From a virus: 41,123 bases of DNA. Below are positions 1 through 13,073 of this stretch, piece by piece; position 1 is the stretch's first letter, and each line of letters begins with the position of its first letter. The position numbers and the translations under genes are program-made. Location: positions 1 through 41,123 of the IMG/VR virus record IMGVR_UViG_3300020401_000030. One strand, written 5' to 3'. The notes under the pieces are model-generated. The model had not been told where the DNA came from, ran no database searches, and was given only the letters and a program-made list of their open reading frames with translations.

Positions 1-626
1 ACAAGGCACACGAGAAACCTAACAAACCATCTCACCTACAGTATCCTGGTTTCTATCATAAGTTTCAACTTGGCACTGTACAGGATTACATATCTTACTA
101 TCAAAGAGTATGGGAACATGTAAAGCATGAGTATGCCTCTGTTGGTGACTTCAGTAATACCAATGCGATGATGAGAGAATCATATATGAGAGAGATCCGA
201 GATCAGATACTCGATGCCTTTGATCTCAAGATCACAATCATCTTCCGAGATCCCGTGCGTCGTCTGTATTCTCAGAATCATTACTATGACTTTGATAGTC
301 CTGACCCTCTCTCTTGGTATGGTAAGATATACAGGAAGTGGGCATCTGTCTTTGGTGAAGAGAGAATATGTCCGATTGTCATGGAGGAGTTCTGGGACGG
401 GCAGGTTGATTTACTTGAGGACTTCCTTGGTATCAAGATTGATACGATACATCCTAACTGCTTTGCTGGTGATTTCAAAAGACATGAGTATCTGGCAGAT
501 CAATGGATTGATGGCGACCCTAAACCACTGACACCAGAGCATTATCAGAGATTGTATAAAAATATGGAGGACGTATATAAAGACTTTGAGGATACCTTCG
601 GGTATATACCAAAGCAGTGGGGATAA
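1..626 (+). CDS. Sulfotransferase-like protein, paralogue A (5' end outside window)
   Basis: The reading frame is open from base 3, so the true start and the N-terminal nucleotide-binding loop lie upstream of the window. The visible 207 codons carry the family's later blocks: a GDFSN motif, then FRDPVRRLYS, which matches the 3'-phosphate-binding RxPxxRxxS segment of PAPS sulfotransferases, then VMEEFW, DQW and a C-terminal FGYIP..W signature shared by all eight paralogues here. By family knowledge it would transfer a sulfuryl group from PAPS to a hydroxyl or amine, acting in the host cytoplasm; the acceptor is unknown. Its stop overlaps the start of the next paralogue by 10 bases. Family membership is well supported, activity is not. 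Confidence 0.8.
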   Translation, partial: KAHEKPNKPSHLQYPGFYHKFQLGTVQDYISYYQRVWEHVKHEYASVGDFSNTNAMMRESYMREIRDQILDAFDLKITIIFRDPVRRLYSQNHYYDFDSPDPLSWYGKIYRKWASVFGEERICPIVMEEFWDGQVDLLEDFLGIKIDTIHPNCFAGDFKRHEYLADQWIDGDPKPLTPEHYQRLYKNMEDVYKDFEDTFGYIPKQWG

Positions 627-1447
627 AATTTCTATTGAACGTGGGGACACACTTCTCCGCTACGAATCCACTGTGGTTCTCACTTTGTCATGATAACAAG
701 TATGTACACACAGGTCATAAGAAGGAGACTGGGTTCTTACTATATCTACAGAACAAGGATAGAAGCAAGTGTAAACCACATCCTCCCGACAGTGCGAAGA
801 TGAGACTGATGCCATTTCTTTTCTCATATTATCCACATGACTTCTTTGAGAGTTCAGAAACGATTGACGATTATATCAGATACTATACGAATCACTGGAA
901 TCAGATTGAAGGGTATGAGTCTGTAGGTGATTTCACAAATCACTATGCAGGTCTGACACCAGAGTTTGTGGAATCGATTGCAGACAAGTTGAATGATGCC
1001 TTCGACATGAAGGTGACTATGATATTCCGTGACCCAATACGTCGTCTGTTCTCGTCTGTAGGTACAAACAAGAAATTTCAAGATGTGCTCACCACTGGTG
1101 TCAGTAATGATAAGGGTATCAAGTTTTCTCAGTATGATCGTATCTACAATACCTTTGCCCCACACTTTGACACCTATGCAATCATCATGGAGGATCTGTG
1201 GAAAGACCATAGCGGTCTCTCTCAGTTTCTAAACTATGATATCAAGACTCTACACTATAATGTCTACACACCTGATCTTGGATCTAGACACCCGAACGAA
1301 CCTCTCCACTTAGATGACCAATGGAAATCAGATAAGGAGGATATTACTCAAGAGTCGATTGATATGGGAAAGAAGAAACTAGGATATGTCTACGAGAACT
1401 TTGAGAAGACGTTTGGTTATATACCATCAGCATGGGAATACCAGTAG
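617..1447 (+). CDS. Sulfotransferase-like protein, paralogue B
   Basis: A 276-residue protein starting at a GTG inside the last codons of paralogue A. The first residues give the beta-strand and loop LLNVGTHFSATNPL, in the place of the PAPS 5'-phosphosulfate loop, but with F where sulfotransferases normally have lysine or arginine. RDPIRRLFS (about residues 138-146) matches the 3'-phosphate-binding segment, followed by IIMEDLW (about 190), DQWKSD (about 233) and FGYIPSAW at the C terminus. The full set of family blocks supports the GTG start, since no upstream extension is needed. Its last 31 bases overlap convergently with paralogue C on the other strand. Substrate unknown; loss of the basic loop residue leaves catalysis uncertain. 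Confidence 0.82.
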   Translation: MGIKFLLNVGTHFSATNPLWFSLCHDNKYVHTGHKKETGFLLYLQNKDRSKCKPHPPDSAKMRLMPFLFSYYPHDFFESSETIDDYIRYYTNHWNQIEGYESVGDFTNHYAGLTPEFVESIADKLNDAFDMKVTMIFRDPIRRLFSSVGTNKKFQDVLTTGVSNDKGIKFSQYDRIYNTFAPHFDTYAIIMEDLWKDHSGLSQFLNYDIKTLHYNVYTPDLGSRHPNEPLHLDDQWKSDKEDITQESIDMGKKKLGYVYENFEKTFGYIPSAWEYQ

Positions 1448-2361
1448 TCAGGTAGTTTACCAAAGTATTCCTTCCACTCATCATATACGAAACCAAGATA
1501 TTGTTTAGACCACTCATATAACTCTGGTGAGATATCGTCCTGTTCTGACGACCACTGATCGACCAGACCTTCTAGTTTAGGTGCCTTTGTTCCTCTCTCT
1601 GGTACAAATACATTCTCATGTATCTTAGTGATTGGATATTCTAGAAACCAACTGATGTCTTGCTCTCCACGAAAGAACTCTTCCATGACTACAGGTAATA
1701 CATTGTGTTTACCGAAGACTCTTCTGAACTTCTTGATACCATCGACATATAAAGCACCTTCATGTATCGGTTCCTCTGTCAGAAGACGTTTGTATGTTCC
1801 TATGTGGTCAAACTTCTTCTTTTTCTTTGCCCTCTTCAATATATCCTTTTCTTGCTGTGTCCACATAGAGAAGTGATGACCATACTTACCTACTCTAGAA
1901 AAGTATCGGTAGATAGGATCACGGAACTGGAATGTAACCTTGACATTGAAGTGTTTTCTCAGTTCTGTGTATACTTCGAGTAGAAACTCTTCATCTAAGT
2001 AAAAGGTGCTATTGGAGAAGTCACCTACAGCATGATATGTGCCCTTCACTCTCTCTGCTAATCTTACATAGTAGTCAACATACTTCTTGATACTGTATGG
2101 TGGTTGTAGATGTTGTCTAGTCTCATTAGGATTGATGAACTGTCGGTTGTCAACAGCATCTATCCATGGTTCACCTGGCAAACTGGTTATGTACTTGTAT
2201 CTGATGTATGATTCTCTCTTCTCATCTGACTTTGTCATCAACTTCAGATAGCAGGTCTCTTTCGAGTATCCTGTGTGTACATACTTTTGATCTTGAGCAA
2301 GCGTAAAGTAAAAAGGAGTAGTGCCACTCCAACCCGTACCTGCGTTGAAAAGAAAGTCCAC
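1417..2361 (-). CDS. Sulfotransferase-like protein, paralogue C
   Basis: A 314-residue protein with a GTG start sharing one base with the TAG stop of the upstream oxygenase-like gene, so it is probably translated by coupling as the third gene of a minus-strand operon (aldolase, oxygenase, sulfotransferase). Visible blocks are NAGTGWSGTTPF at residues 6-17 (tryptophan where the loop lysine is expected), GDFSNS near 113-118, RDPIYRYFS at 147-155, VMEEFF near 225-230, then DQWSSE and a C-terminal FGKLPDYW. A lysine-rich stretch of about eight residues near 178-183 is peculiar to this copy. The 3' end overlaps paralogue B by 31 bases in antisense. The family assignment is good; the acceptor is unknown. 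Confidence 0.82.
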   Translation of the reverse strand: MDFLFNAGTGWSGTTPFYFTLAQDQKYVHTGYSKETCYLKLMTKSDEKRESYIRYKYITSLPGEPWIDAVDNRQFINPNETRQHLQPPYSIKKYVDYYVRLAERVKGTYHAVGDFSNSTFYLDEEFLLEVYTELRKHFNVKVTFQFRDPIYRYFSRVGKYGHHFSMWTQQEKDILKRAKKKKKFDHIGTYKRLLTEEPIHEGALYVDGIKKFRRVFGKHNVLPVVMEEFFRGEQDISWFLEYPITKIHENVFVPERGTKAPKLEGLVDQWSSEQDDISPELYEWSKQYLGFVYDEWKEYFGKLPDYWYSHADGI

Positions 2362-3002
2362 TATTCTATGTCAATCTCACGTCCTGAGTAAATTCTATTT
2401 TTCAATACCAAGTCTTCTTGTACAAAAAATGAGTTTAGTGTGATTCTAGGTACATCATAAGAATTCCTGATACTATGCCATGTGATGTTTGGAAGAGAGT
2501 TGTGGAAAAATGCCTTGTTTGGTTTCCACTCTAATTCATATGTGTACTCTGAAGGGTCACTTGCTTCTTCATGGTCTCCTTTATCATTCTTACTGAGATT
2601 CTTATGTAATATCGTTCCATCACTCTTCAATGGGTCAACATACAATATGGTTGTGCTTATTCTTGCTCTATTATCACAGTGTGGAGGGTAAGTCCACTTT
2701 GAGGGTGCGATTGCCCAGTGTATTATCTTTTTCAACTTGCCTTCATATCCACGGTGAGGTAGATCATACTTATAAAACAACTCATTAGTCTCTGGTATGA
2801 TATCTTCACTCTCATAGAAACTATATTTGTTTCTGACTGCTAATTCTTTCTTCTCATAGTTTTGAGTTGTTGCACCAACCTCATAAAAATTTTTCAGATG
2901 CTTCTGACCTAATTCTCTTATTGTCTCCCATCTTTCTGGTGACAGGAAATTCTCAAAAGCATAGCACTCCCAAGGTTCTTTGATGTGAATAATGTCCATC
3001 AT
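2361..3002 (-). CDS. 2-oxoglutarate/Fe(II)-dependent oxygenase-like protein
   Basis: A 213-residue protein whose C-terminal half has the layout of the double-stranded beta-helix dioxygenases: PPHCD gives the HxD iron ligands (H108, D110), W-H176 gives the distal histidine, and R186 ten residues later fits the 2-oxoglutarate-binding arginine. Such enzymes hydroxylate small molecules, sugars or protein side chains. Many phages carry members of this superfamily; the substrate of this one cannot be read from sequence. The ATG overlaps the TGA of the aldolase gene (ATGA), and its stop overlaps the start of paralogue C, so the three minus-strand genes are almost certainly co-translated. I am fairly sure of the fold and the metal ligands, not of the reaction. 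Confidence 0.7.
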   Translation of the reverse strand: MMDIIHIKEPWECYAFENFLSPERWETIRELGQKHLKNFYEVGATTQNYEKKELAVRNKYSFYESEDIIPETNELFYKYDLPHRGYEGKLKKIIHWAIAPSKWTYPPHCDNRARISTTILYVDPLKSDGTILHKNLSKNDKGDHEEASDPSEYTYELEWKPNKAFFHNSLPNITWHSIRNSYDVPRITLNSFFVQEDLVLKNRIYSGREIDIE

Positions 3003-3787
3003 GTATTTAGAATCGTCTCTATGGTCTTTCTGGGTCTATTGATGAAGTTTACGTCACCTGAGTATACGATAAATTTATATCCCTCAGATATTCTCTGTTC
3101 ATATTCTATCTCAGGATCTGCTGATAGATGATTACCAGGTATATGATATCCTATCGGCACCCGATTTATGATACATCCTTTCTTGTATGCGTCTAATTGA
3201 ACTTGAAACTCATGAGTGGTGAAGTCACCTGCACATCCTATAGACGCTGATAGGTCATAAGGTCCTATCAAAGCAGCGTCTACGTCTTCACTTAGTATGT
3301 CATTTATATTTTCTATCGCTTCATAGTGCTCTATCATAGGAATGAGTAGAGGACTCTGACCTACACCCTCAAGATAGTCGTGAAAATGACTACCATATCC
3401 GTTTGCTCTGTTGAAACCGAGACCTCTTGACCCTGTTGGTGGGTATGCAATCGCATCTTTGATGTCTGACATCTGTTTTCCAGTCCTTACTTGTGGAACT
3501 ACGATGCCACCAGCACCTTGTTCCATTGCTTCTACCGCAAGATAGGGGTCAGGTTTAGCAATTCTCGCTAGAGGGAGCGTATTTCCAATTTCTAAAGCAC
3601 GAAATATGTTTGGTAACTGGTTTCTTGTGATATTACTGTGTTCTAAATCCACTCCCACGAACTGAAATCCGAAAGAACCCATCAATTCTGCGAGTTCTGT
3701 GCATGGTAATTGTTGCCAAGATCCAATAACTACTCCTCCACTAGATAGTTTTGCTCTTATATGGTCAATTCTGAGTTTTTTATTCAT
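2999..3787 (-). CDS. HpcH/HpaI aldolase/citrate lyase family protein
   Basis: A 262-residue protein of the class II pyruvate aldolase family (HpaI-like TIM barrel). Family marks in order: GSWQQL near the N terminus, GVDLEHS (acid and base histidine region), ARIAKPDP, GAGGIVVPQVRT, IPMIEHYEAI with the metal-binding glutamate, and ALIGPYDLSASIG with the metal-binding aspartate. Such enzymes make or cleave 4-hydroxy-2-oxo acids. I place the start at the ATG at 3787, where the normal HpaI N terminus begins; a 24-residue upstream extension would run antisense over the neighbouring SGNH gene. That ATG shares the CATG tetranucleotide with the divergent gene start at 3786. The residues needed for catalysis appear intact. 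Possible roles are making an unusual acid sugar precursor or host carbon metabolism. Confidence 0.85.
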   Translation of the reverse strand: MNKKLRIDHIRAKLSSGGVVIGSWQQLPCTELAELMGSFGFQFVGVDLEHSNITRNQLPNIFRALEIGNTLPLARIAKPDPYLAVEAMEQGAGGIVVPQVRTGKQMSDIKDAIAYPPTGSRGLGFNRANGYGSHFHDYLEGVGQSPLLIPMIEHYEAIENINDILSEDVDAALIGPYDLSASIGCAGDFTTHEFQVQLDAYKKGCIINRVPIGYHIPGNHLSADPEIEYEQRISEGYKFIVYSGDVNFINRPRKTIETILNT

Positions 3788-4367
3788 GATTTTATTCTCT
3801 GGATGTAGTATAACATATGGTGATGAGTTGGTAAACCCTGAAAAAGACAGATTTTCCAAGAATCATGTCAACATTGCACGGTGCGGACTGTCAAATGACA
3901 TGATTGTCATGAGAACTATCGAGTATATTGAGCAAAATCCCGATGTAGACTACGTTGTAACGCAATTTACAGTGCCTAGAAGGTCAACATACTACGAAAA
4001 TGAGTGGAAAAGCATAACACCATGGACAAAAAACGTGGAATCAAGTGTATATTATAAGTATTTGGACTCTCAAGAGATGAGAAATATGAATTTATGGAAG
4101 AATGTGTATATTCTAGATCAATATTTACGTGACATACCGCATTATTTCTGGAGATTGAGTGAAAGCACAGAGGATTCATCAACAAATGACAGTATTTTCA
4201 AGAAGGTGGTGCCTTGGAGTGGTATGAAAACCTTATATGACCTAATTGGCAGACCTGATACACACCCCAACCATTATGTTACAGGTCACCCTAACGAACT
4301 AGGGCATAATTTGATCTTTCAACACCTCCAAGGCGTTGTCCCAAACATATCATACCACTCATCATAG
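3786..4367 (+). CDS. SGNH-hydrolase-like protein (first of two paralogues)
   Basis: A 193-residue protein from the ATG at 3786; a longer open frame begins at 3699 but lies wholly antisense to the aldolase N terminus and lacks family features. FSGCSITYGDEL resembles SGNH block I (nucleophile serine), CGLSNDMI supplies a Gly/Asn block, and GHPNELGH near the C terminus looks like the catalytic-histidine block. The same three blocks occur in the gene at 11406. SGNH enzymes are esterases or O-acyltransferase partners acting on acyl groups of sugars and other compounds. The start is head to head with the aldolase on a shared CATG. The 3' end overlaps paralogue D by 49 bases in antisense. Function is inferred only at superfamily level. 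Confidence 0.65.
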   Translation: MILFSGCSITYGDELVNPEKDRFSKNHVNIARCGLSNDMIVMRTIEYIEQNPDVDYVVTQFTVPRRSTYYENEWKSITPWTKNVESSVYYKYLDSQEMRNMNLWKNVYILDQYLRDIPHYFWRLSESTEDSSTNDSIFKKVVPWSGMKTLYDLIGRPDTHPNHYVTGHPNELGHNLIFQHLQGVVPNISYHSS

Positions 4368-5227
4368 TATTTGGCAAGGCATCTTCGACCAAAACTCAAG
4401 TCATCATCAGTCAAATCCTCCAAATCCGACTTATACTGGTCACTAAGGTTCTCATGGTGTGGTGCTTTTGTTCCCATTTCAGGATAATAGCAGTTAGGGT
4501 ATAGGTTTTTGATGTCGAAGTGTAAAAAATTACTAAGTTTTGCTAAAGCATCGTTTTTACCACCCCATAAATCTTCGGAAACGATAGTTGTGGTACTAAA
4601 AATCGATTTATAATACTTTATCCTCTTGACAAACTCACAATTCATGCTATAATTGCCTATCGTAAGATAACTCCAGAAATAATCTCTCGATGTAGGGTAT
4701 TTTTTACGAATATTCTCGTCATATTGGTATTGTGCCGACAATTCGCTGTATAATCTGCGAACTGGATCACGAAAAATGATCAAAACCTTGATTTTGAAGT
4801 GTTTTCTGAGTTCTGGTGCTATATCTTGTAAAAATTTCTGTGGAAGCATGGCATTGCTGTTAGAAAAGTCAGCAACATAGGCATATTCGTGTTTTATTCT
4901 CTCATAATGTCTTTTGTAGTACTTGATATACGTGTCTAGCGTCGGTTTTGTAAATAATTCTTCAATCTCGTCTAAATTTTCGGTAAAAGCGTACTTATCT
5001 TTGAGATGCCACTCATTTTTGTAGTGTGGATTCTCAGATTTACCCATAATGAAGTCATACCAAGGTTTTCTCCACTTCCATGCCTCGTCACTATATACAT
5101 GATATAGTAAGTGACTCTCTTTTTGTAATCCTACATGGGCACACTTGTTAGAACGCTGTAATGTGAGGTGAAGAGGACTTGTAGCACTCCAACCAGTCCC
5201 TGCACCGATAATTAATGGAACTCTCAT
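4319..5227 (-). CDS. Sulfotransferase-like protein, paralogue D
   Basis: A 302-residue protein. I use the ATG at 5227 because the family's N-terminal strand and loop (IIGAGTGWSATSPL, residues 6-19) begin right after it; a further 37 upstream residues are antisense to paralogue E and match nothing. VADFSNSNA lies near 118-126, RDPVRRLYS at 153-161, IVSEDLWG replaces the usual VMEEFW, and DQYKSD replaces DQW. The C terminus is cut short after FGTTP compared with the other copies. The tryptophan at the usual basic loop position recurs. It is a single minus-strand gene between two plus-strand genes: it shares CATG with the start of paralogue E and overlaps the SGNH gene tail to tail by 49 bases. 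Confidence 0.8.
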   Translation of the reverse strand: MRVPLIIGAGTGWSATSPLHLTLQRSNKCAHVGLQKESHLLYHVYSDEAWKWRKPWYDFIMGKSENPHYKNEWHLKDKYAFTENLDEIEELFTKPTLDTYIKYYKRHYERIKHEYAYVADFSNSNAMLPQKFLQDIAPELRKHFKIKVLIIFRDPVRRLYSELSAQYQYDENIRKKYPTSRDYFWSYLTIGNYSMNCEFVKRIKYYKSIFSTTTIVSEDLWGGKNDALAKLSNFLHFDIKNLYPNCYYPEMGTKAPHHENLSDQYKSDLEDLTDDDLSFGRRCLAKYYDEWYDMFGTTPWRC

Positions 5228-6065
5228 GAAACCTATATTACATTTGAACGCAGGGGTGGGTTGGTCAGCGACTAAACCACTTTGCGACACACTTTCGGAC
5301 GTGAGATATGCTATTTGTCCTAATAGACAGCATACCACAGAGTGTAATGTCCTGTATTACTTATATGAGAAGCAATACAAACCTGTACATGCAAATTTTT
5401 ACTGGCATACGGTACATAAGAAGCGAGGTCTAGACTTTGTCATAAAAAATACGACTTTAGAGTGGTATATCAATTATATCAAGTCACATATCGTCGATAG
5501 TCACCTAGGAGTCAGTGATTTCTCAAATAGTAACACAGATCTACCTCCATACTTCCTAAAACAGATTGCACCAGTGCTAGAAGAAGAATTTGATGTCAGA
5601 GTGACTACAATTTGGAGACATCCCGTCAGAAGGTCGTATTCTCAGATGTCAGCATGGTATTTCAAGAAATGGAATGACAGTCACGAGAGATATCCAGATA
5701 GTATCACATATTGGAGGTCACAACTCAGTAGTCCTTCACACTTACTGCCAGATTACGTAGAAGTTTACAAGAATTGGTCATCTGCCTTCAAAAAAGTCTA
5801 TCCTGTGATTATGGAGGAGGTATGGGAAGATCCTAGAGGACTATCTGAGTTTCTAGGTGTCAAAATAGACAAAATGAGTGAAAATCTGTATTTTCCAGAA
5901 CGAGGAACAAATATGCCACATATAGAGGGTCTAGAACACCAATGGCAGAGCGATATGCAAGATTTGACGGATGATGATTTACAATACGGTAGAAATCGAC
6001 TAGAATGGGTATATAATAACTTTAAATCGGAATTTCACTACATACCTGAGTCATGGGAAAAGTAA
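5226..6065 (+). CDS. Sulfotransferase-like protein, paralogue E
   Basis: A 279-residue protein with ATG at 5226, back to back with paralogue D. The loop is LNAGVGWSATKPL (residues 7-19); SDFSNSN is near 97-103. The 3'-phosphate block reads RHPVRRSYS (131-139), with histidine in place of the aspartate seen in the other copies, while the arginine and serine that contact the phosphate remain. VIMEEVWED, HQWQSD and FHYIPESWEK complete the family pattern. Its last 13 bases are also the start of paralogue F, in a different frame. This begins a run of plus-strand genes that continues to 12053. Activity and acceptor are unknown. Confidence 0.82.
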   Translation: MKPILHLNAGVGWSATKPLCDTLSDVRYAICPNRQHTTECNVLYYLYEKQYKPVHANFYWHTVHKKRGLDFVIKNTTLEWYINYIKSHIVDSHLGVSDFSNSNTDLPPYFLKQIAPVLEEEFDVRVTTIWRHPVRRSYSQMSAWYFKKWNDSHERYPDSITYWRSQLSSPSHLLPDYVEVYKNWSSAFKKVYPVIMEEVWEDPRGLSEFLGVKIDKMSENLYFPERGTNMPHIEGLEHQWQSDMQDLTDDDLQYGRNRLEWVYNNFKSEFHYIPESWEK

Positions 6066-7051
6066 AACTACTACTAAACGTCGGAACTTGCTTTTCTGCC
6101 ACATCTCCGTTCCATTACACGGTTTCATGGGATCATAAGTGTGTTTTCAACGGACATTGCAAAGAACCTCAGTATCTTTATCATTTGATGGCAGGTACTA
6201 AGCAATTGAAGGCAGAGAAACCAGATAAGACTAGACCTAAACCTGATCAGGCAAGAAAACAGGGAAAACCAGATATATTGACACAACACTCAAAATATGT
6301 TGTAGGTAAGTGGACAAAGGAGCAAGAAGATGAGTTTTTCAGAAGTCCTATGCATATAGACAAGTATATTAGGTATTGGTTGAGACATTGGGATAATGTG
6401 AAGGATGAATTTGAATGGGTAGGTGATTTTTCCAATCAGAGTGCATTATTGTCAATTCCCTTCATGGCATCTATAAAAGATCAGTTACTTGAGCATTTTG
6501 ATGTCAAAGTGACCATGCAATTCAGAGATCCTGTAAGAAGACTGTTTTCTGTGGCAAATAAGTGTGTAAAAAATAAAGAATACAGTCAACGCAAACAATT
6601 GAAGAATAAATTCTATCCTGATCGAGTTGAGCGTAATAAACAGGTAAATGAGGCAATGACACCCATACAGGTGATGTATCAGTGGTTATCAGGTGCATTT
6701 GAACCCAATGCATACTATTCTCAGATATACAGGCGACATGCACAGATATGGGGTAAAGAAAACGTGAAAGCAATCGTTATGGAGGACTTTCACAATCCTG
6801 ATAAAGAGAAAGACCAATTAGCGATGTTATCAGACTTCTTTGACTATAAGTTCACAAGTATACATGAAAATGTGTATTATCCCGATATGGGGTCGAATCC
6901 ACCTAAGTTAGATTGGTTGAGTGACCAATACTCGTCTGATATCGTAGATATCACAGATGATCAGTATAAGAAGTGTCGTCAACTAATGAATCAGGTATAT
7001 AAAGAATTTGAAAAGACATTCGGGTATATTCCAGATGAATGGGGAAAATAA
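6053..7051 (+). CDS. Sulfotransferase-like protein, paralogue F
   Basis: At 332 residues it is one of the longest copies. It starts at the ATG at 6053, within the SWEK-stop codons of paralogue E. LLNVGTCFSATSPF (7-20) resembles the loop of paralogue B, with F at the usual lysine position. A lysine- and proline-rich insertion at about residues 57-75 looks like a flexible linker and is absent in the others. GDFSNQS (about 124-130), RDPVRRLFS (158-166), a second insertion with AMTPIQVMYQWLSGAF, IVMEDFH, DQYSSD and FGYIPDEWGK follow. B and F appear to be closest to each other by eye. Its last 17 bases overlap paralogue G. Confidence 0.82.
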   Translation: MGKVKLLLNVGTCFSATSPFHYTVSWDHKCVFNGHCKEPQYLYHLMAGTKQLKAEKPDKTRPKPDQARKQGKPDILTQHSKYVVGKWTKEQEDEFFRSPMHIDKYIRYWLRHWDNVKDEFEWVGDFSNQSALLSIPFMASIKDQLLEHFDVKVTMQFRDPVRRLFSVANKCVKNKEYSQRKQLKNKFYPDRVERNKQVNEAMTPIQVMYQWLSGAFEPNAYYSQIYRRHAQIWGKENVKAIVMEDFHNPDKEKDQLAMLSDFFDYKFTSIHENVYYPDMGSNPPKLDWLSDQYSSDIVDITDDQYKKCRQLMNQVYKEFEKTFGYIPDEWGK

Positions 7052-7934
7052 ACCACTATTACTAATCAATGCAGGTGTAGCGTGGTCTGGAACTAAACCA
7101 CTATGCAAAACACTGCAAGTATGCCAAAAGATCACACATCATGGTCTTGTTGTCGAGAATAACATATTATACTACCTTTACCTACTACAGACCGATCTAA
7201 AGCAAGCAAAACGGTATTTCAACGAAAGACACAACTATAGAGTGCGATCTGCGATTGATAGCAACTCTATACCGCTTGATTTGGAATATTTGGAAAATAT
7301 CTTCAAAAAGAAGACAACTATCCATACTTACATCAAATATCACCTTGACCTTTGGGAAAGGAACAAAAAGAAGGGATATATCGGATTATCCGACTTTTCA
7401 AACAGTAATGCCATATTACCTTCCAATTTTCTTGCATCTATCAAGACAGAGCTAGAAAAGCACTTTATTGTCAAAGTAATCATGATATTCCGTGATCCAG
7501 TGCGAAGATGGTATTCTGAAGCGTCAGTCGAGTACAAATACAATACAAGCGAACATCCTGATGAATGGAGGGGTGGAACTGCAGATGTGACGGGATATAA
7601 GGATAGTATCGAATATTGGAAGTCAAAACGCATAGATCACAATTGCGACTATCTAAAGATCTATAAAAACTATAAAAGAGTGTTTGACACGTATCCTATC
7701 GTTATGGAAGAGTTCTGGTACGATCAGAGTGGTCTCAGTGACTTTCTAGGACGTGATATCGATAAAGTCAATGCAAACGTATATTGTCCTTATATTGGCA
7801 TAAACAAAGACCATACACCTGCAGATCTACAAAAACTGTCAGATGATGACCTTATGTGGGGTATGAACAAACTTGAGAAAGTATACAAAGGATGGGAGAA
7901 AGAATTCGGATATATACCTCAATCATGGTTATAA
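7035..7934 (+). CDS. Sulfotransferase-like protein, paralogue G
   Basis: A 299-residue protein. I choose the ATG at 7035 rather than 7008 because the other copies begin 6-10 residues before the conserved strand, here LLLINAGVAWSGTKPL. LSDFSNSN sits near 118-125, RDPVRRWYS at 153-161 and IVMEEFW later. Unlike its relatives it lacks the DQW-x-SD block: the equivalent region reads directly from CPYIGINKDH to LSDDDL, so a short segment near the C terminus appears deleted. It ends FGYIPQSWL. The start overlaps the WGK-stop codons of paralogue F, the same junction form as the A/B and E/F boundaries. Confidence 0.8.
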   Translation: MNGENKPLLLINAGVAWSGTKPLCKTLQVCQKITHHGLVVENNILYYLYLLQTDLKQAKRYFNERHNYRVRSAIDSNSIPLDLEYLENIFKKKTTIHTYIKYHLDLWERNKKKGYIGLSDFSNSNAILPSNFLASIKTELEKHFIVKVIMIFRDPVRRWYSEASVEYKYNTSEHPDEWRGGTADVTGYKDSIEYWKSKRIDHNCDYLKIYKNYKRVFDTYPIVMEEFWYDQSGLSDFLGRDIDKVNANVYCPYIGINKDHTPADLQKLSDDDLMWGMNKLEKVYKGWEKEFGYIPQSWL

Positions 7935-7935
7935 T

Positions 7936-8028
7936 ATGAAAAGACTCTGGAAGTGGATAGTCGGTGAGTACAAACTTTGGAAACTCCGTCGCCAAGACCC
8001 ATACATCTATGAAGATGACGACGAGTAA
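7936..8028 (+). CDS. Tiny basic/acidic protein, 30 residues
   Basis: A short ATG frame begins one base after the stop of paralogue G. It encodes an amphipathic, tryptophan- and lysine-rich N-terminal half (MKRLWKWIVGEYKLWKL), then RRQDPYIYEDDDE with an acidic end. The sharp basic-to-acidic layout and the exact fit into the gap support a real small gene; I have the impression that similar tiny proteins with an RRxDPxIYE ending occur in marine T4-like phages, but cannot verify it. Its 3' end overlaps the start of paralogue H by about 20 bases. It has no recognised function; a surface-binding or regulatory peptide is possible. Confidence 0.5.
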   Translation: MKRLWKWIVGEYKLWKLRRQDPYIYEDDDE

Positions 8029-8998
8029 AATACCTCTTCTGGTATTTTGTGGATGGGGTCACTCTGCAACAACCCCCTTTTATTATACGGTAGCGTTAGA
8101 TAACAAGGGGTTTCATGGTGGTCATAAAAAAGAGACAGGATATCTGAACGAGCTAGAAAACTATGAGTACTTCAATATGCCAATGTGGAAGTACACATCA
8201 GATCCCTATGAGAGATTATTAGGTAAAGACGATCCTCTCACACCACCATCTCTGAATTGTCACTCACCATACACCAGACATACAGAGGAGTTCATACGAG
8301 ACTGGATTGCAGAACCACCTAGTATCCAGAAATATATCGACTACTATAAGATACACTATGAGAATATCAAAGATGATTACTATGGTGTCTCTGACTTCGC
8401 TAATGGTAACTCATGGTTGAGAGAACCTTTTCTTGAGAAGTATATTCCAATACTACAAGAACACTTTGATGTCAAGTGTATATTTGTAGCAAGAGACCCT
8501 GTGCGTAGGTCATACTCTGATTTTAGTGCGAAGTTCACATGTAATGATGTCAGTGGCGAAAGACTGAAGGAGGGGTGGTTATATCCAGACAATCCAACTG
8601 AAAGACAATATACCAGTATACATGAGATGTTCCGTGGTGAACTTCATAAGAGTTGTACAAGGTTCTATGTTGAGTTTTACCGCAAGTTCAAGAAGTATGT
8701 GCCTACGTTGCAACTTGTCATGGAAGAGTTCTGGGAACCAAGTAGATTTGAGGAGCAGACAAAGAAAGTATCAGATTTTTTAGGATTCCCTATAACAAAG
8801 ATTCACCATAATGCCTTTTGGCCAGAAGCAGCAGATAAAGCACCACAGTATGATTACCTCAAAGACCAGTGGGGGTCAGTCAGAGACCCTCTGACACCTG
8901 AGTTATATGAATATGGTAGAAATGTACTATTCCCTGTCTACAAGGCATGGAAGGACGAGTTTGGGGTCTTACCTGATACGTGGGGTGAGTTCATATGA
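8009..8998 (+). CDS. Sulfotransferase-like protein, paralogue H
   Basis: A 329-residue protein from ATG 8009 (ATG 8015 is an equally good start; a GTG at 7964 would add 15 residues that overlap the tiny ORF and look non-homologous). Its loop is the most divergent, FCGWGHSATTPFYYTV, with histidine at the lysine position. SDFANGNS replaces DFSNSN; ARDPVRRSYS (near 161-170), VMEEFWE, DQWGSV and FGVLPDTWGEFI follow. The segment HGGHKKETGYL resembles HTGHKKETGFL in paralogue B and is a second shared block across the family. It ends four bases into the next gene (ATGA overlap). Confidence 0.82.
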   Translation: MKMTTSKIPLLVFCGWGHSATTPFYYTVALDNKGFHGGHKKETGYLNELENYEYFNMPMWKYTSDPYERLLGKDDPLTPPSLNCHSPYTRHTEEFIRDWIAEPPSIQKYIDYYKIHYENIKDDYYGVSDFANGNSWLREPFLEKYIPILQEHFDVKCIFVARDPVRRSYSDFSAKFTCNDVSGERLKEGWLYPDNPTERQYTSIHEMFRGELHKSCTRFYVEFYRKFKKYVPTLQLVMEEFWEPSRFEEQTKKVSDFLGFPITKIHHNAFWPEAADKAPQYDYLKDQWGSVRDPLTPELYEYGRNVLFPVYKAWKDEFGVLPDTWGEFI

Positions 8999-10062
8999 TC
9001 AATTACTGGGCGACACCCAACATGGGTAAGATGCACATGATGCAACTCATAGAAATCAATAAGAAATCATATACAAAGAACAAGTATCCATACTATATCT
9101 ACAAACAATGGCATGACAACGATATGAGAGTTGAAAAGTCATATGTGCTAAGACATGGTCAGTCAGATATAGAGACAGCGATAAAAACTAAGACCCCATT
9201 TGGTGAAAAGGTCAAGCACAAGGGTGGTGTCTTACATGAATACTTGTGGGAGGTAGCAAAGAGCGATACTGATAGCATCAAACTACATTCTAATACCAGT
9301 GAAGTGGGTGGTGACCTGATGGAGCGTTACTTTGGTAATGTAAGAGATAGAAAACCCCCTGATGACTTGATGAAGGACAAAGACCCTGTTGAGGTGTTCT
9401 TTACGGACAAGTGGTTTACATTATTACAGGAAAAATTCCCTGTATCTCCTTCTATAAATTATCTTGGGACTTTCTTACAACCATATTTGAGGGATAATGC
9501 AAATTGTATCGTCCCTTTGGTTGAAGAATTGTGTGATGTTGATTTTATCTTTGATCCTTACATAATCATGGGCAGACAAATGTTGGGTACACCAACAAGA
9601 CTACTTACAGACTTGACTGAGCAAGAAAAGTATGTTGTAAACATATACAGGTCGAGAAAGAATGTCATACCATACAAAGAAGACTTGATTGATTGTTTTG
9701 CTAGTAAGTTGAAACGATATAGTAATAAGCATGCGTACCACAGATATAAAACCGAGGATGCCTCAGTGTTATACAATCTTGATAGAGACTTATTGTGGAT
9801 ATACCTTGACACTGTTGTGCAGCAGGTGAGAAGAATAGAGAGATACTTCAAACATAACAACATAGACGCATACTACTTCAATATGGATCGGGACAACTAT
9901 AAAGATACCTTTGGGTTTGAAAAGGATGAACTACCACGCACTCAAACTCATCCTGGCGACTACCCACAACGAGAGTTGTATGAGACAATAGCGAAAGAGT
10001 ATGTTATGATGAGAAACATGAAAGATATGAGGAGGCGAGGTAGAATATATGATAGGCTTTAG
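8995..10062 (+). CDS. Protein of unknown function, 355 residues
   Basis: I do not recognise this gene. It is a soluble-looking protein with no signal peptide or membrane segment, rich in aromatic and charged residues, with a basic C terminus (RNMKDMRRRGR). A stretch near residues 295-325 (AYYFNMDRDNYKDTFGFEKDELPR) and an early YVLRHGQSD segment are the most motif-like parts. It is coupled on both sides: its ATG overlaps the TGA of paralogue H, and its own last 14 bases overlap the carbamoyltransferase start. Its position between a sulfotransferase-like protein and a carbamoyltransferase suggests a step in the same surface-decoration pathway, for example a divergent transferase, but this is context only. 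Confidence 0.75.
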   Translation: MINYWATPNMGKMHMMQLIEINKKSYTKNKYPYYIYKQWHDNDMRVEKSYVLRHGQSDIETAIKTKTPFGEKVKHKGGVLHEYLWEVAKSDTDSIKLHSNTSEVGGDLMERYFGNVRDRKPPDDLMKDKDPVEVFFTDKWFTLLQEKFPVSPSINYLGTFLQPYLRDNANCIVPLVEELCDVDFIFDPYIIMGRQMLGTPTRLLTDLTEQEKYVVNIYRSRKNVIPYKEDLIDCFASKLKRYSNKHAYHRYKTEDASVLYNLDRDLLWIYLDTVVQQVRRIERYFKHNNIDAYYFNMDRDNYKDTFGFEKDELPRTQTHPGDYPQRELYETIAKEYVMMRNMKDMRRRGRIYDRL

Positions 10063-11425
10063 TGAAGGGTTTCATGATGCAGCAGTCGCTGTGGTCAATG
10101 ATGGTAAGATTTGTTATGCTTCACATTCAGAAAGATATTCTAAGATAAAGCATGATAAGAACCTTGATGTCACTGCTGCTGCCACTGCACGGTTATTATG
10201 TCATGACCAGAAGGTAGCATTCTACGAAAGACCATGGTTGAAAAGAACAAGGCAGTTTTTTGCAGGTCAGAAGGCATGGTATAGACACAGACACCTGACA
10301 CTCCAACCTACAGAGTATCATAGTCATCATAAGTCACACGCTGCTGCAGCGTTTCAGACATCACCTTTTGACGAAGCAGCGATAGTTGTTGTTGATAGTA
10401 TAGGAGAGTGGGATTGTACATCTATATGGACTGCTGAATATAAACAAGGTCACGCTTGCTATAAGAAGAGATGGTCGCAGTGGTATCCGCAATCTATAGG
10501 TTTGTGGTACTCAGCACTCACCAAGTGGGCAGGTTTGCGACCACTGGACGAGGAGTATATCTTTATGGGTATGGCAGCGTTTGGTAATCCCGTGCATATG
10601 AACGTAGTAGAGAAGCAGTTGCATAGGAATAATCATAAGGGAGCGAGGATAGGAGACTATGACAAGTGTGATATCGCAAAGAGTGCAGAGAGAATACTAC
10701 AACTAGAACTCAATACTATATTTGCTAGAGCAGCACAGTATAGTAAGCACATATGCTATGGAGGTGGTGTCGCACTCAACTGTGTCGTAAACACTGGACT
10801 AAGGGAAATGTATAACTTATGGATTATGCCTTGTCCTGGTGACGCAGGTGGTGCTCTGGGTGCAGCATGTCTTGCATATGGTAAGAAGGTTGCCTTCAGT
10901 CCTTACCTAGGATATAATATACAGAAGTTATGTGATCCAAGGAGAGTTGTTGATGGACTCCTCGAAAAAAGAGTCGTGGGGGTTGCAAATGGCCGTGCTG
11001 AGTTTGGTCCTCGTGCTTTGGGTAATAGAAGTTTACTGGCGGATCCAAGGAAAGCTGAAACCAAAGACCTAGTAAACGAAATAAAGAGGAGAGATAAGTT
11101 CAGACCATTTGCACCTGCAGTTCTTGAGGAACACGCTCAAGATTATTTCGATATGCCTAAACAATCAAGGTATATGTCTTACGTTTATAAATGTAAGCAG
11201 CAGAGGGCGATACCTGCCTGTATACACGTCGATGGATCTGCTAGGGTACAAACAGTACCAAAAGACTCAGAGAGTATTCTAAGACCAATACTGGAGTGCT
11301 GGTACGAACGTACTGGGTGTCCTGTATTATTGAATACATCTTTGAATATCAAAGGTAAACCTATGGTCAACACCATAGGGGATGCAATAGAATTTTCACA
11401 TAAGTATGATGTCACTGTGTTTTAG
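10049..11425 (+). CDS. Carbamoyltransferase, NodU/CmcH (TobZ) family
   Basis: A 458-residue protein with the marks of O-carbamoyltransferases: MIGFSEGFHDAAVAVV at the N terminus, the metal-binding histidine cluster YHSHHKSHA (90-98), VVDSIGEWD, GMAAFGNP, CYGGGVALN, CPGDAGGALGAA, and the C-terminal GRAEFGPRALGNRSLL segment (about 314-330) followed by LLNTSLNIKGKP. The reaction uses carbamoyl phosphate and ATP to carbamoylate a hydroxyl, often on a sugar. It is shorter than typical members (about 550-600 residues), with compact spacing in the middle, yet all main blocks remain. A strong AGGAGGCGAGG ribosome-binding stretch at 10030-10040 supports ATG 10049. Its end overlaps the second SGNH gene by 20 bases. 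Confidence 0.92.
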   Translation: MIGFSEGFHDAAVAVVNDGKICYASHSERYSKIKHDKNLDVTAAATARLLCHDQKVAFYERPWLKRTRQFFAGQKAWYRHRHLTLQPTEYHSHHKSHAAAAFQTSPFDEAAIVVVDSIGEWDCTSIWTAEYKQGHACYKKRWSQWYPQSIGLWYSALTKWAGLRPLDEEYIFMGMAAFGNPVHMNVVEKQLHRNNHKGARIGDYDKCDIAKSAERILQLELNTIFARAAQYSKHICYGGGVALNCVVNTGLREMYNLWIMPCPGDAGGALGAACLAYGKKVAFSPYLGYNIQKLCDPRRVVDGLLEKRVVGVANGRAEFGPRALGNRSLLADPRKAETKDLVNEIKRRDKFRPFAPAVLEEHAQDYFDMPKQSRYMSYVYKCKQQRAIPACIHVDGSARVQTVPKDSESILRPILECWYERTGCPVLLNTSLNIKGKPMVNTIGDAIEFSHKYDVTVF

Positions 11426-12053
11426 TGGATGTAGTATCACATGGGGTGATGAACTACAAAAGAGATTTAGCGAGAGATATAGTTCTCTTGTATCAAAACA
11501 TTATGATACCAAACACACAAACATATCAGAGTGTGGTATCAGTAATGATGCGATAGTAAGAAATACAATCAGACATCTACAAAATACCAGTTCTCCTGAC
11601 GTAGTTGTTATACAATACACAGTTCATCCTAGAATAGAGTATTTCGACAATCAACTCATACAGAAGTGGACACCACAGAGGGCAAATGATACACAGAGGA
11701 GTAGAGCATACTATTTGTCTGTCTACAATGACATCTTTGCAGCAGAGAACATGTGGAAGAATATATTCTTATTTGACTCATATTGTAAGAGTGTAGGACA
11801 GAAATATGTGTCATTGATTGCCGATCACTTTGAACGTATTATTGTAAAACCTGAAAAATTCTATAAAGGAGACATTGGATATTGGAGAAGTATGTGTAAA
11901 GACTACAAACCTGTATACATTCAAAAAGAATTACTAGGCACTGAGATAGAGCATCCAGAGAACTATGCTCAAGGTAGAAAAGGTGGGCATCCAAGTGCAC
12001 AAGGTCACATACTAATGGCAAATAAAACTATCGAGTTGATAGACGCTATATAA
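11406..12053 (+). CDS. SGNH-hydrolase-like protein (second of two paralogues)
   Basis: A 215-residue relative of the gene at 3786. Shared blocks are CFSGCSITWGDEL (block I with the nucleophile serine), ECGISNDAIVRNTIRHL, VVVIQYTVHPR, ENMWKNIFLFD and GGHPSAQGHIL (catalytic-histidine region). Start ATG 11406 or 11409; both lie inside the carbamoyltransferase C terminus. The family suggests an esterase or an acyl-handling enzyme; next to a carbamoyltransferase it may act on the same sugar or lipid. The sigma70-like -35 box of the next unit lies within its last codons. Confidence 0.7.
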   Translation: MMSLCFSGCSITWGDELQKRFSERYSSLVSKHYDTKHTNISECGISNDAIVRNTIRHLQNTSSPDVVVIQYTVHPRIEYFDNQLIQKWTPQRANDTQRSRAYYLSVYNDIFAAENMWKNIFLFDSYCKSVGQKYVSLIADHFERIIVKPEKFYKGDIGYWRSMCKDYKPVYIQKELLGTEIEHPENYAQGRKGGHPSAQGHILMANKTIELIDAI

Positions 12054-12064
12054 ACTGTTATAAT
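12036..12064 (+). promoter_or_regulatory. Sigma70-type promoter for the glycosyltransferase unit
   Basis: TTGATA at 12036-12041 and a perfect TATAAT at 12059-12064 are separated by exactly 17 bases, matching the host housekeeping promoter form. The expected start of transcription near 12070 leaves a leader of about 15 bases before the ATG at 12086. The -35 box lies inside the last codons of the SGNH gene. Confidence 0.7.
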
Positions 12065-12085: not shown

Positions 12086-12841
12086 ATGGCTAAAGGATTT
12101 AAGGTGGTATCTAAACCACCCACTGTTGAAGCAAAAGACACTTTTGATATTGAAGCAGCAAAGAAATTGATCCAAGGTAAGAGCGTTGTATTCTGCTTAC
12201 CTGGCAGAGGCGTATCATACGTCTTCCTAAAGAATTTCGTATCACTCTGTTTCGAGTTGGTACAGAACGGAGCAAATATACAGATAGCACAAGACTATAG
12301 TTCTATGGTGAACTTTGCAAGATGTAAATGTCTTGGTGCGAACGTATTACGAGGACCTGATCAATTACCTTGGGATGGCAAACTCAACTATGATTATCAA
12401 CTATGGATTGATAGTGATATCGTATTTTCTAATGAATCATTCTATCGTCTGATCGCTATGGATAAAGATATTGCAGGTGGATGGTATGCAACAGAGGATG
12501 GTAGAACTACATCATGTGCACACTGGTTAGAAGAGGATGATTTCAAAGAGAATGGTGGAGTCATGAATCATGAGATGGTTGAGGGCATTGTAAAAAGACG
12601 TAAACCATTTACTGTTGACTATTCTGGATTTGGTTGGTTACTTATCAAGAAAGGTGTGTTTGAACATAAGGAAATGAAGTATCCTTGGTTTGCTCCACAG
12701 ATGCAGGTATTTGATTCTGGTGAGGTACAAGATATGTGTGGTGAAGACGTATCATTCTGTCTTGATGCAATCAAAGCAGGTTTTGAAATATGGGTTGATC
12801 CACAGTGTAGGGTAGGTCATGAGAAAACTAGAATCATATAG
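12086..12841 (+). CDS. GT-A fold glycosyltransferase
   Basis: A 251-residue protein with features of Anp1/GT2-like transferases: CLPGRGVSYVFL near the N terminus, a DSD metal and nucleotide-sugar motif (109-111) in LWIDSDIVF, SGFGWLLIKKGVF, YPWFAP, and a GEDVSFC motif (219-225) that would carry the catalytic acid, then a histidine in VGHEKT near the end. Such enzymes move a sugar from a nucleotide donor to an acceptor in the cytoplasm. Relatives are common in T4-like cyanophages. It has its own sigma70-type promoter and is followed three bases later by a small acidic gene and a terminator, so its timing likely differs from the late structural genes next to it. Donor and acceptor are not determinable here. 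Confidence 0.85.
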   Translation: MAKGFKVVSKPPTVEAKDTFDIEAAKKLIQGKSVVFCLPGRGVSYVFLKNFVSLCFELVQNGANIQIAQDYSSMVNFARCKCLGANVLRGPDQLPWDGKLNYDYQLWIDSDIVFSNESFYRLIAMDKDIAGGWYATEDGRTTSCAHWLEEDDFKENGGVMNHEMVEGIVKRRKPFTVDYSGFGWLLIKKGVFEHKEMKYPWFAPQMQVFDSGEVQDMCGEDVSFCLDAIKAGFEIWVDPQCRVGHEKTRII

Positions 12842-13056: not shown

Positions 13057-13073
13057 CTAAATAATGATAAATA
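13057..13073 (+). promoter_or_regulatory. Late-promoter-like boxes before gp25
   Basis: CTAAATA at 13057-13063 and ATAAATA at 13067-13073 resemble the T4-type late promoter (TATAAATA) read by the phage gp55-type sigma factor. The second box ends 20 bases before the gp25 start. Either or both could be used. They follow directly after the terminator, as expected for an independent late unit. Confidence 0.6.

Follow-up and report, generated by a model that had tools for sequence, protein, structure and literature searches.

Two divergent gene pairs of a marine phage each begin on a single shared CATG, whose palindrome supplies an ATG start codon on either strand. Both lie within 1.5 kb of each other in the window, by which we mean the whole stretch of viral DNA analysed here (41,123 nucleotides). 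The arrangement had been proposed in a first-pass annotation, and direct reading of the sequence bears it out: the genes of each pair overlap by 2 nt at their 5′ ends. The same kind of junction recurs in related loci with different gene partners, and one of the two junctions is conserved across all the relatives that carry the gene pair. The explanation that we favor, and regard as reasonably probable, is an extreme and recurrent packing of gene cassettes, with expression achieved by read-through transcription and by translation initiation that would not depend on a Shine–Dalgarno (SD) sequence.

The genes and their start codons

The first junction occupies positions 3785–3788, within a TCATGA at 3784–3789, and starts a gene of the HpcH/HpaI aldolase family on the minus strand (2999–3787, 262 aa; Pfam PF03328, E 2.5e-15) and a gene on the plus strand (3786–4367, 193 aa) that we take to be SGNH-hydrolase-like. 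This last name was assigned from the GCS, GxSN and HPxxxGH motifs visible in its alignment; the gene has no Pfam match and no meaningful PDB match. The second junction, at 5225–5228 within a TCATGA at 5224–5229, starts two paralogues of a sulfotransferase-like (SULT) family that share an HMM: D on the minus strand (4319–5227, 302 aa) and E on the plus strand (5226–6065, 279 aa). Matches of this family to Pfam Sulfotransfer_1 are weak and confined to 6 of 15 members (best E 0.0019), and the fold of D is nearest, in a Foldseek comparison, to heparan sulfate 3-O-sulfotransferase, again weakly (best E 5.7e-3, TM 0.45–0.51). Between the two junctions, the SGNH-like gene and D converge and overlap by 49 nt (4319–4367).

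From its T4-type baseplate genes, the window is assigned to a T4-like, cyanophage-related marine myovirus; its gp6-like baseplate product is 63% identical to that of Marine virus AG-345-D19 and about 49–52% identical to those of Synechococcus phages. The first 12 kb form an accessory cluster of at least seven SULT paralogues, two SGNH-like genes, the aldolase and others. The SULT array itself, with at least seven paralogues, extends over positions 1–9000 and occupies both strands. From position 3 to 12053, 12 of 13 gene junctions overlap, and the remaining one is a gap of 29 nt; only two junctions in the cluster are divergent, and both are CATG. The other type of SGNH gene (MMSLCFSGCS; 11406–12053) stands in tandem with a 17-nt overlap, which is also the commonest tandem overlap in the locus set described below (47 of 155 tandem junctions). 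A near-identical twin contig (99.93% over 16,062 nt) carries both CATG junctions. A DNA search with the 12 kb found no cultured-phage relative, and the search for cultured-phage relatives of the genes turned up only the distant single-cell record Marine virus AG-345-D19, with none for the aldolase. A bacterial origin of the D family was considered and rejected, as a scan of genome contigs returned no relative. A second scan with an aldolase alignment recovered the four loci of the first.

The four starts are backed as well as sequence allows. A later start in either pair, which the first-pass annotation had named as the observation to look for against start sharing, is contradicted by the homology-fixed starts of all four genes. 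From residues 2–11 onward, the aldolase profile aligns with the N-terminal ends of HpcH/HpaI aldolases of known structure, at nearly equal chain positions. The SGNH start cannot shift downstream because the conserved GCS motif is already at residues 6–8, and the starts of D and E are the N-termini common to paralogues in other contexts, tandem and divergent alike. Longer reading frames from rarer start codons exist in the window for the aldolase (TTG 3859), the SGNH gene (GTG 3699) and D (GTG 5338). The extensions of the aldolase and SGNH genes are not available in the related locus L003, where the SGNH frame is open for only 21 nt upstream, without a start codon, and the aldolase frame has no upstream start codon either. 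Comparison with L003 also indicates purifying selection (dN/dS 0.060/0.261 for SGNH and 0.032/0.395 for D).

Recurrence and age of the junctions

We surveyed 132 loci (1.27 Mb, overlapping loci included), with starts fixed by HMMs for the SULT, SGNH and aldolase families; the loci were fetched because they hold these three families, and the rates are not transferable to phages at large. Genes were kept when their HMM match began by position 12 and a start lay within 15 residues; in the SGNH start tally, an ATG was missing upstream of the motif in 8 of 79 rows. Rows with identical flanks were skipped or merged before counting; together with the merging of duplicates, among them the twin contig and copies in reverse orientation, this reduced 59 divergent rows to 33 distinct pairs. 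Thirteen of these are CATG, six have a gap of 10 nt, one a gap of 2 nt, and the rest gaps of 26–166 nt. A 14th CATG pair (L008/L015) was left uncounted since the start of the partner gene is not fixed by an HMM. By gene type, 7 of 17 pairings are CATG, or 5 of 15 when the aldolase/SGNH types are merged, and at least five separate gene pairings have arrived at a CATG junction.

Counts made without any assumption about starts agree. The window holds 126 CATG, fewer than the 176 that its trinucleotides predict. Reading frames of 100 codons or more run in both directions from just two of the 126, exactly the two junctions; CAT-N(0–60)-ATG sites opening at least 100 codons both ways are absent from the window. 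Neither kind of double opener arose in two Markov simulations that covered the full 1.27 Mb. With at least 150 codons required on both strands, the set holds 17 CATG sites versus 6 for the next spacing; three of the 17 (L017 5741, L018 3593, L019 5673) lie within a SULT gene past its start and are probably spurious. Two more CATG sites, at L125 9467 and L127 12232, pass a threshold of 100 codons on each strand but not one of 150. Divergent pairs also recur at a second distance, CAT-N10-ATG, whose spacer is rich in AT (for example AGATAAATTT); they join D to two different SULT families in L008, L009, L014, L017, L018 and L019.

The first-pass annotation had called for comparison of the same junctions in related phages. 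The aldolase/SGNH pair retains its CATG in 7/7 distinct junctions (window, L003, L004, L005, L014, L017 and L021, with the twin uncounted), a conservation that spans 61–66% aldolase identity as well as wider kin and takes in two aldolase subtypes. No such pairing with SGNH is seen for the aldolases of L018, L019, L023 and L109 (the L078 contig); tandem SGNH genes may begin with GTG (L018, L019). For D and E, the CATG junction is confined to the window and its twin, and other junctions of D with its partners differ. Both pairs are divergent (5′-5′) gene overlaps in that their 5′ ends overlap, and for the first, retention in relatives speaks against an annotation error. Judged by these distributions, the two junctions are unequal in age, the first old and the second young.

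The D start, taken more widely, lies on a CATG with three partner families, in three separate branches of the D tree: the E-type SULT of the window, another SULT (L084, L111) and the second SGNH type (L003, L004). Pairs homologous to CATG ones occur with gaps of 2 nt (L005) or 31 nt (L010). L003 also has a D of 93% identity that is arranged in tandem through an ATGA. An SGNH/SULT pair in L121 is also joined on CATG.

In three loci that have lost the aldolase, the CATG site is reused or left as a remnant. In L008/L015, the aldolase-like start MNKFA (first five codons) leads in frame into an unrelated gene, the fusion in L015 lying at about 3677–4387. Near 5988 in L009, a gene of this kind (MFTYWGG...) begins at a distance of 36 nt, and what remains at the CATG is a dead MNK-stop. 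Together these loci suggest an apparent capture of the start by a new gene.

Translation and transcription from shared starts

The first-pass annotation saw no room for a leader between the genes and placed the ribosome-binding site of each inside the opposite coding sequence. The leader does lie there; the binding site presupposes an SD sequence, and SD-like words are no commoner at these starts than at random ATGs. They are missing from 49% of 141 SULT, 57% of 141 SGNH and 64% of 11 aldolase starts, the corresponding figures being 57% for 20,352 ATG trinucleotides and 35% for 238 called genes with good scores. The three families therefore seem independent of SD sequences, which would remove the main obstacle to start sharing. 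At the first junction, the SGNH gene has no SD-like word in relatives and, in the window, nothing beyond a distant GAG. Weak SD-like words do precede D and E (AGGT, GGA), as antisense of the partner's proline codons. An SD sequence in the opposite gene was rejected as a general rule: usable spacing is found only in D/E, L084 and L111, where the words are antisense of conserved proline codons, and not at the first junction. Predicted folding around CATG starts is weaker than at other starts (mean −3.1, n=32, versus −4.8 kcal/mol, n=194, uncorrected for kinship among the sequences).

The promoters were likewise expected inside the opposite genes. For both pairs, the best promoter-like sites in a motif search lie 410–613 nt upstream of the starts and none at the start itself, where transcription of a leaderless mRNA would begin. 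A bidirectional promoter at the junction was rejected, there being no room for it and the best candidates lying hundreds of nucleotides away. The expectation would hold for E, which has a strong candidate inside D, but not for the aldolase, whose candidate is on the far side of SGNH, at the 3′ end of D; at about 560–570 nt, neither is close to the start that it would serve. Within SGNH, some 20 nt ahead of the aldolase start, there is also a 9/12 promoter-like site, which was not adopted, since by eye it decays in relatives. The motif search gave no good promoter candidate for SGNH or D.

The candidate for E is a TTGACA-N16-TATAAT with TGC before the −10 element (4626–4653, plus strand), antisense inside D and 572 nt before E. 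It is the best promoter-like site of 1–13 kb, and we treat it as a likely promoter. Among 20 D genes, the site scores 12/12 in 10 and 11/12 in one and is absent from nine, which include the CATG-paired D of L084, L111, L003 (7683–8561) and L004. It overlies a conserved peptide (NYSMNCEFVKR in the window) that fixes much of the sequence, and the protein sequence of D accounts for part of its conservation. Also against a promoter, synonymous shuffles yielded a 12/12 site somewhere antisense in 2.4–5.5% of trials per gene, and codon conservation at the site (0.886 versus a gene mean of 0.719) is high without being the top window of the gene. In its favor, GTC is used in just one of four conserved valine columns and a conserved AGC in just one of 13 serine columns, both of them within the hexamers, and synonymous changes in the region fall mostly in the spacer.

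The candidate for the aldolase is a TTGCCA-N17-TATGAT with TG (4349–4377, minus strand), 561 nt before the start. It is weak (10/12 in the window), and its sequence is coding in frame, so that it is inseparable from protein constraint. Its distance is exactly 561 nt in 5/7 genomes and 573 and 690 nt in the others.

Consensus sigma70 promoters number 55 in the 1.27 Mb, duplicate loci included, versus a simulated mean of 2.7. One further site in the window, TTGATA-N17-TATAAT with TG (12036–12064, plus strand, 11/12), stands directly before the gene at 12086. The motif NATAAATA, which we presume to be of the T4 late-promoter type, is absent from both strands of 1–13 kb. It occurs at 13066, 27018, 36060, 36839 and 39098, all on the plus strand and all before or among later genes. 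The 1–13 kb cluster, devoid of this motif, may be expressed early.

Origin and significance of start sharing

In the explanation that we favor, the genes of the accessory cluster would have been put together almost ORF to ORF, with divergent pairs probably joined on a shared AT. CATG would then be the limit of head-to-head packing, in which CAT and ATG share AT, no start is lost and no dual coding arises. Such junctions would have formed repeatedly with different partners, the aldolase/SGNH one then persisting. Transcripts would probably come from sigma70-type promoters several hundred nucleotides away inside neighboring genes and read through the junction, and ribosomes would initiate on an AUG whose surroundings are rich in AU, weakly structured and poor in SD motifs, a context usable on both strands. 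The junctions may have been kept because neither a promoter nor an SD sequence was needed at them. Whether CATG sharing goes further and forms a general, selected building rule, by which start-to-stop cassettes join on AT and capture initiation sites while their promoters are kept antisense in neighboring genes, is an idea that we hold tentatively.

A deletion ratchet acting alone, by which short intergenic spacers lose one base after another and come to rest at CATG, is unlikely. CATG is indeed a hard limit for such a process, the 2-nt gap of L005 stands beside the CATG of L003 and L004 in homologous pairs, and the start-agnostic count holds a few sites at spacings of 0, 1, 2 and 7. Among the 33 anchored pairs, however, a small sample, gaps of 0, 1 and 3–9 nt are absent, and direct joining on AT fits this distribution better. 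We also find it rather doubtful that start sharing was selected for regulation, with two mRNAs of complementary 5′ regions blocking each other or triggering each other's cleavage in a head-to-head, excludon-like switch. The CATG geometry, the overlapping transcripts that the candidate promoters would yield and the retention of the first junction in all seven cases would suit such a switch, but the partners vary (the aldolase, the YWGG gene, several SULTs), homologous pairs have the gaps seen in L005 and L010, and packing accounts for the data with nothing demanding a regulatory role. Chance, disfavored already in the first-pass annotation, combined with misassigned starts is very improbable: a C before any ATG automatically creates an ATG on the opposite strand, but C precedes only 34/205 other (non-divergent) anchored ATG starts, simulated sequence has no such site, and the starts of the 13/33 pairs are fixed by homology and the junctions recur in relatives.

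Packing on CATG is best read as the divergent counterpart of the ATGA overlap between codirectional genes, itself abundant in the set (36/155 tandem junctions at −4). Both are minimal tetramers whose start-codon bases serve two genes at once. ATGA joins a stop and a start on the same strand and can couple translation on one mRNA, whereas CATG joins two starts on opposite strands and offers no ribosome coupling. In the text of a study of 58 prokaryotes, divergent overlaps are strongly under-represented (331/14,958), and ATGA and the convergent tetramers are explained, with CATG itself occurring nowhere in that text (PMC2174442). By our arithmetic on its Tables 2 and 3, about 57 divergent overlaps fall below 5 nt, with essentially every one of them in the CATG phase; the arrangement therefore appears to exist in bacteria but to be rare. 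These short overlaps belong to the same class as the junctions described here, the difference being that CATG is the modal divergent class in our loci. Noncontiguous operons and excludons (PMC7154746) have opposite-strand genes in each other's transcripts, which is the outcome that we propose for read-through, though in our case the promoters are candidates only. A named description of CATG start sharing was not found in the open-access papers searched.

Prodigal disallows overlap of the 5′ ends of opposite-strand genes (PMC2848648), so that one gene of every CATG pair would be truncated or lost in its annotation. CATG junctions are probably undercounted in phage databases. The junctions described here provide a clear and recurrent natural case of the divergent counterpart of ATGA, and if the candidate promoter in D is active, it would offer a case, open to testing, of promoter conservation inside the coding sequence of an opposite-strand gene.
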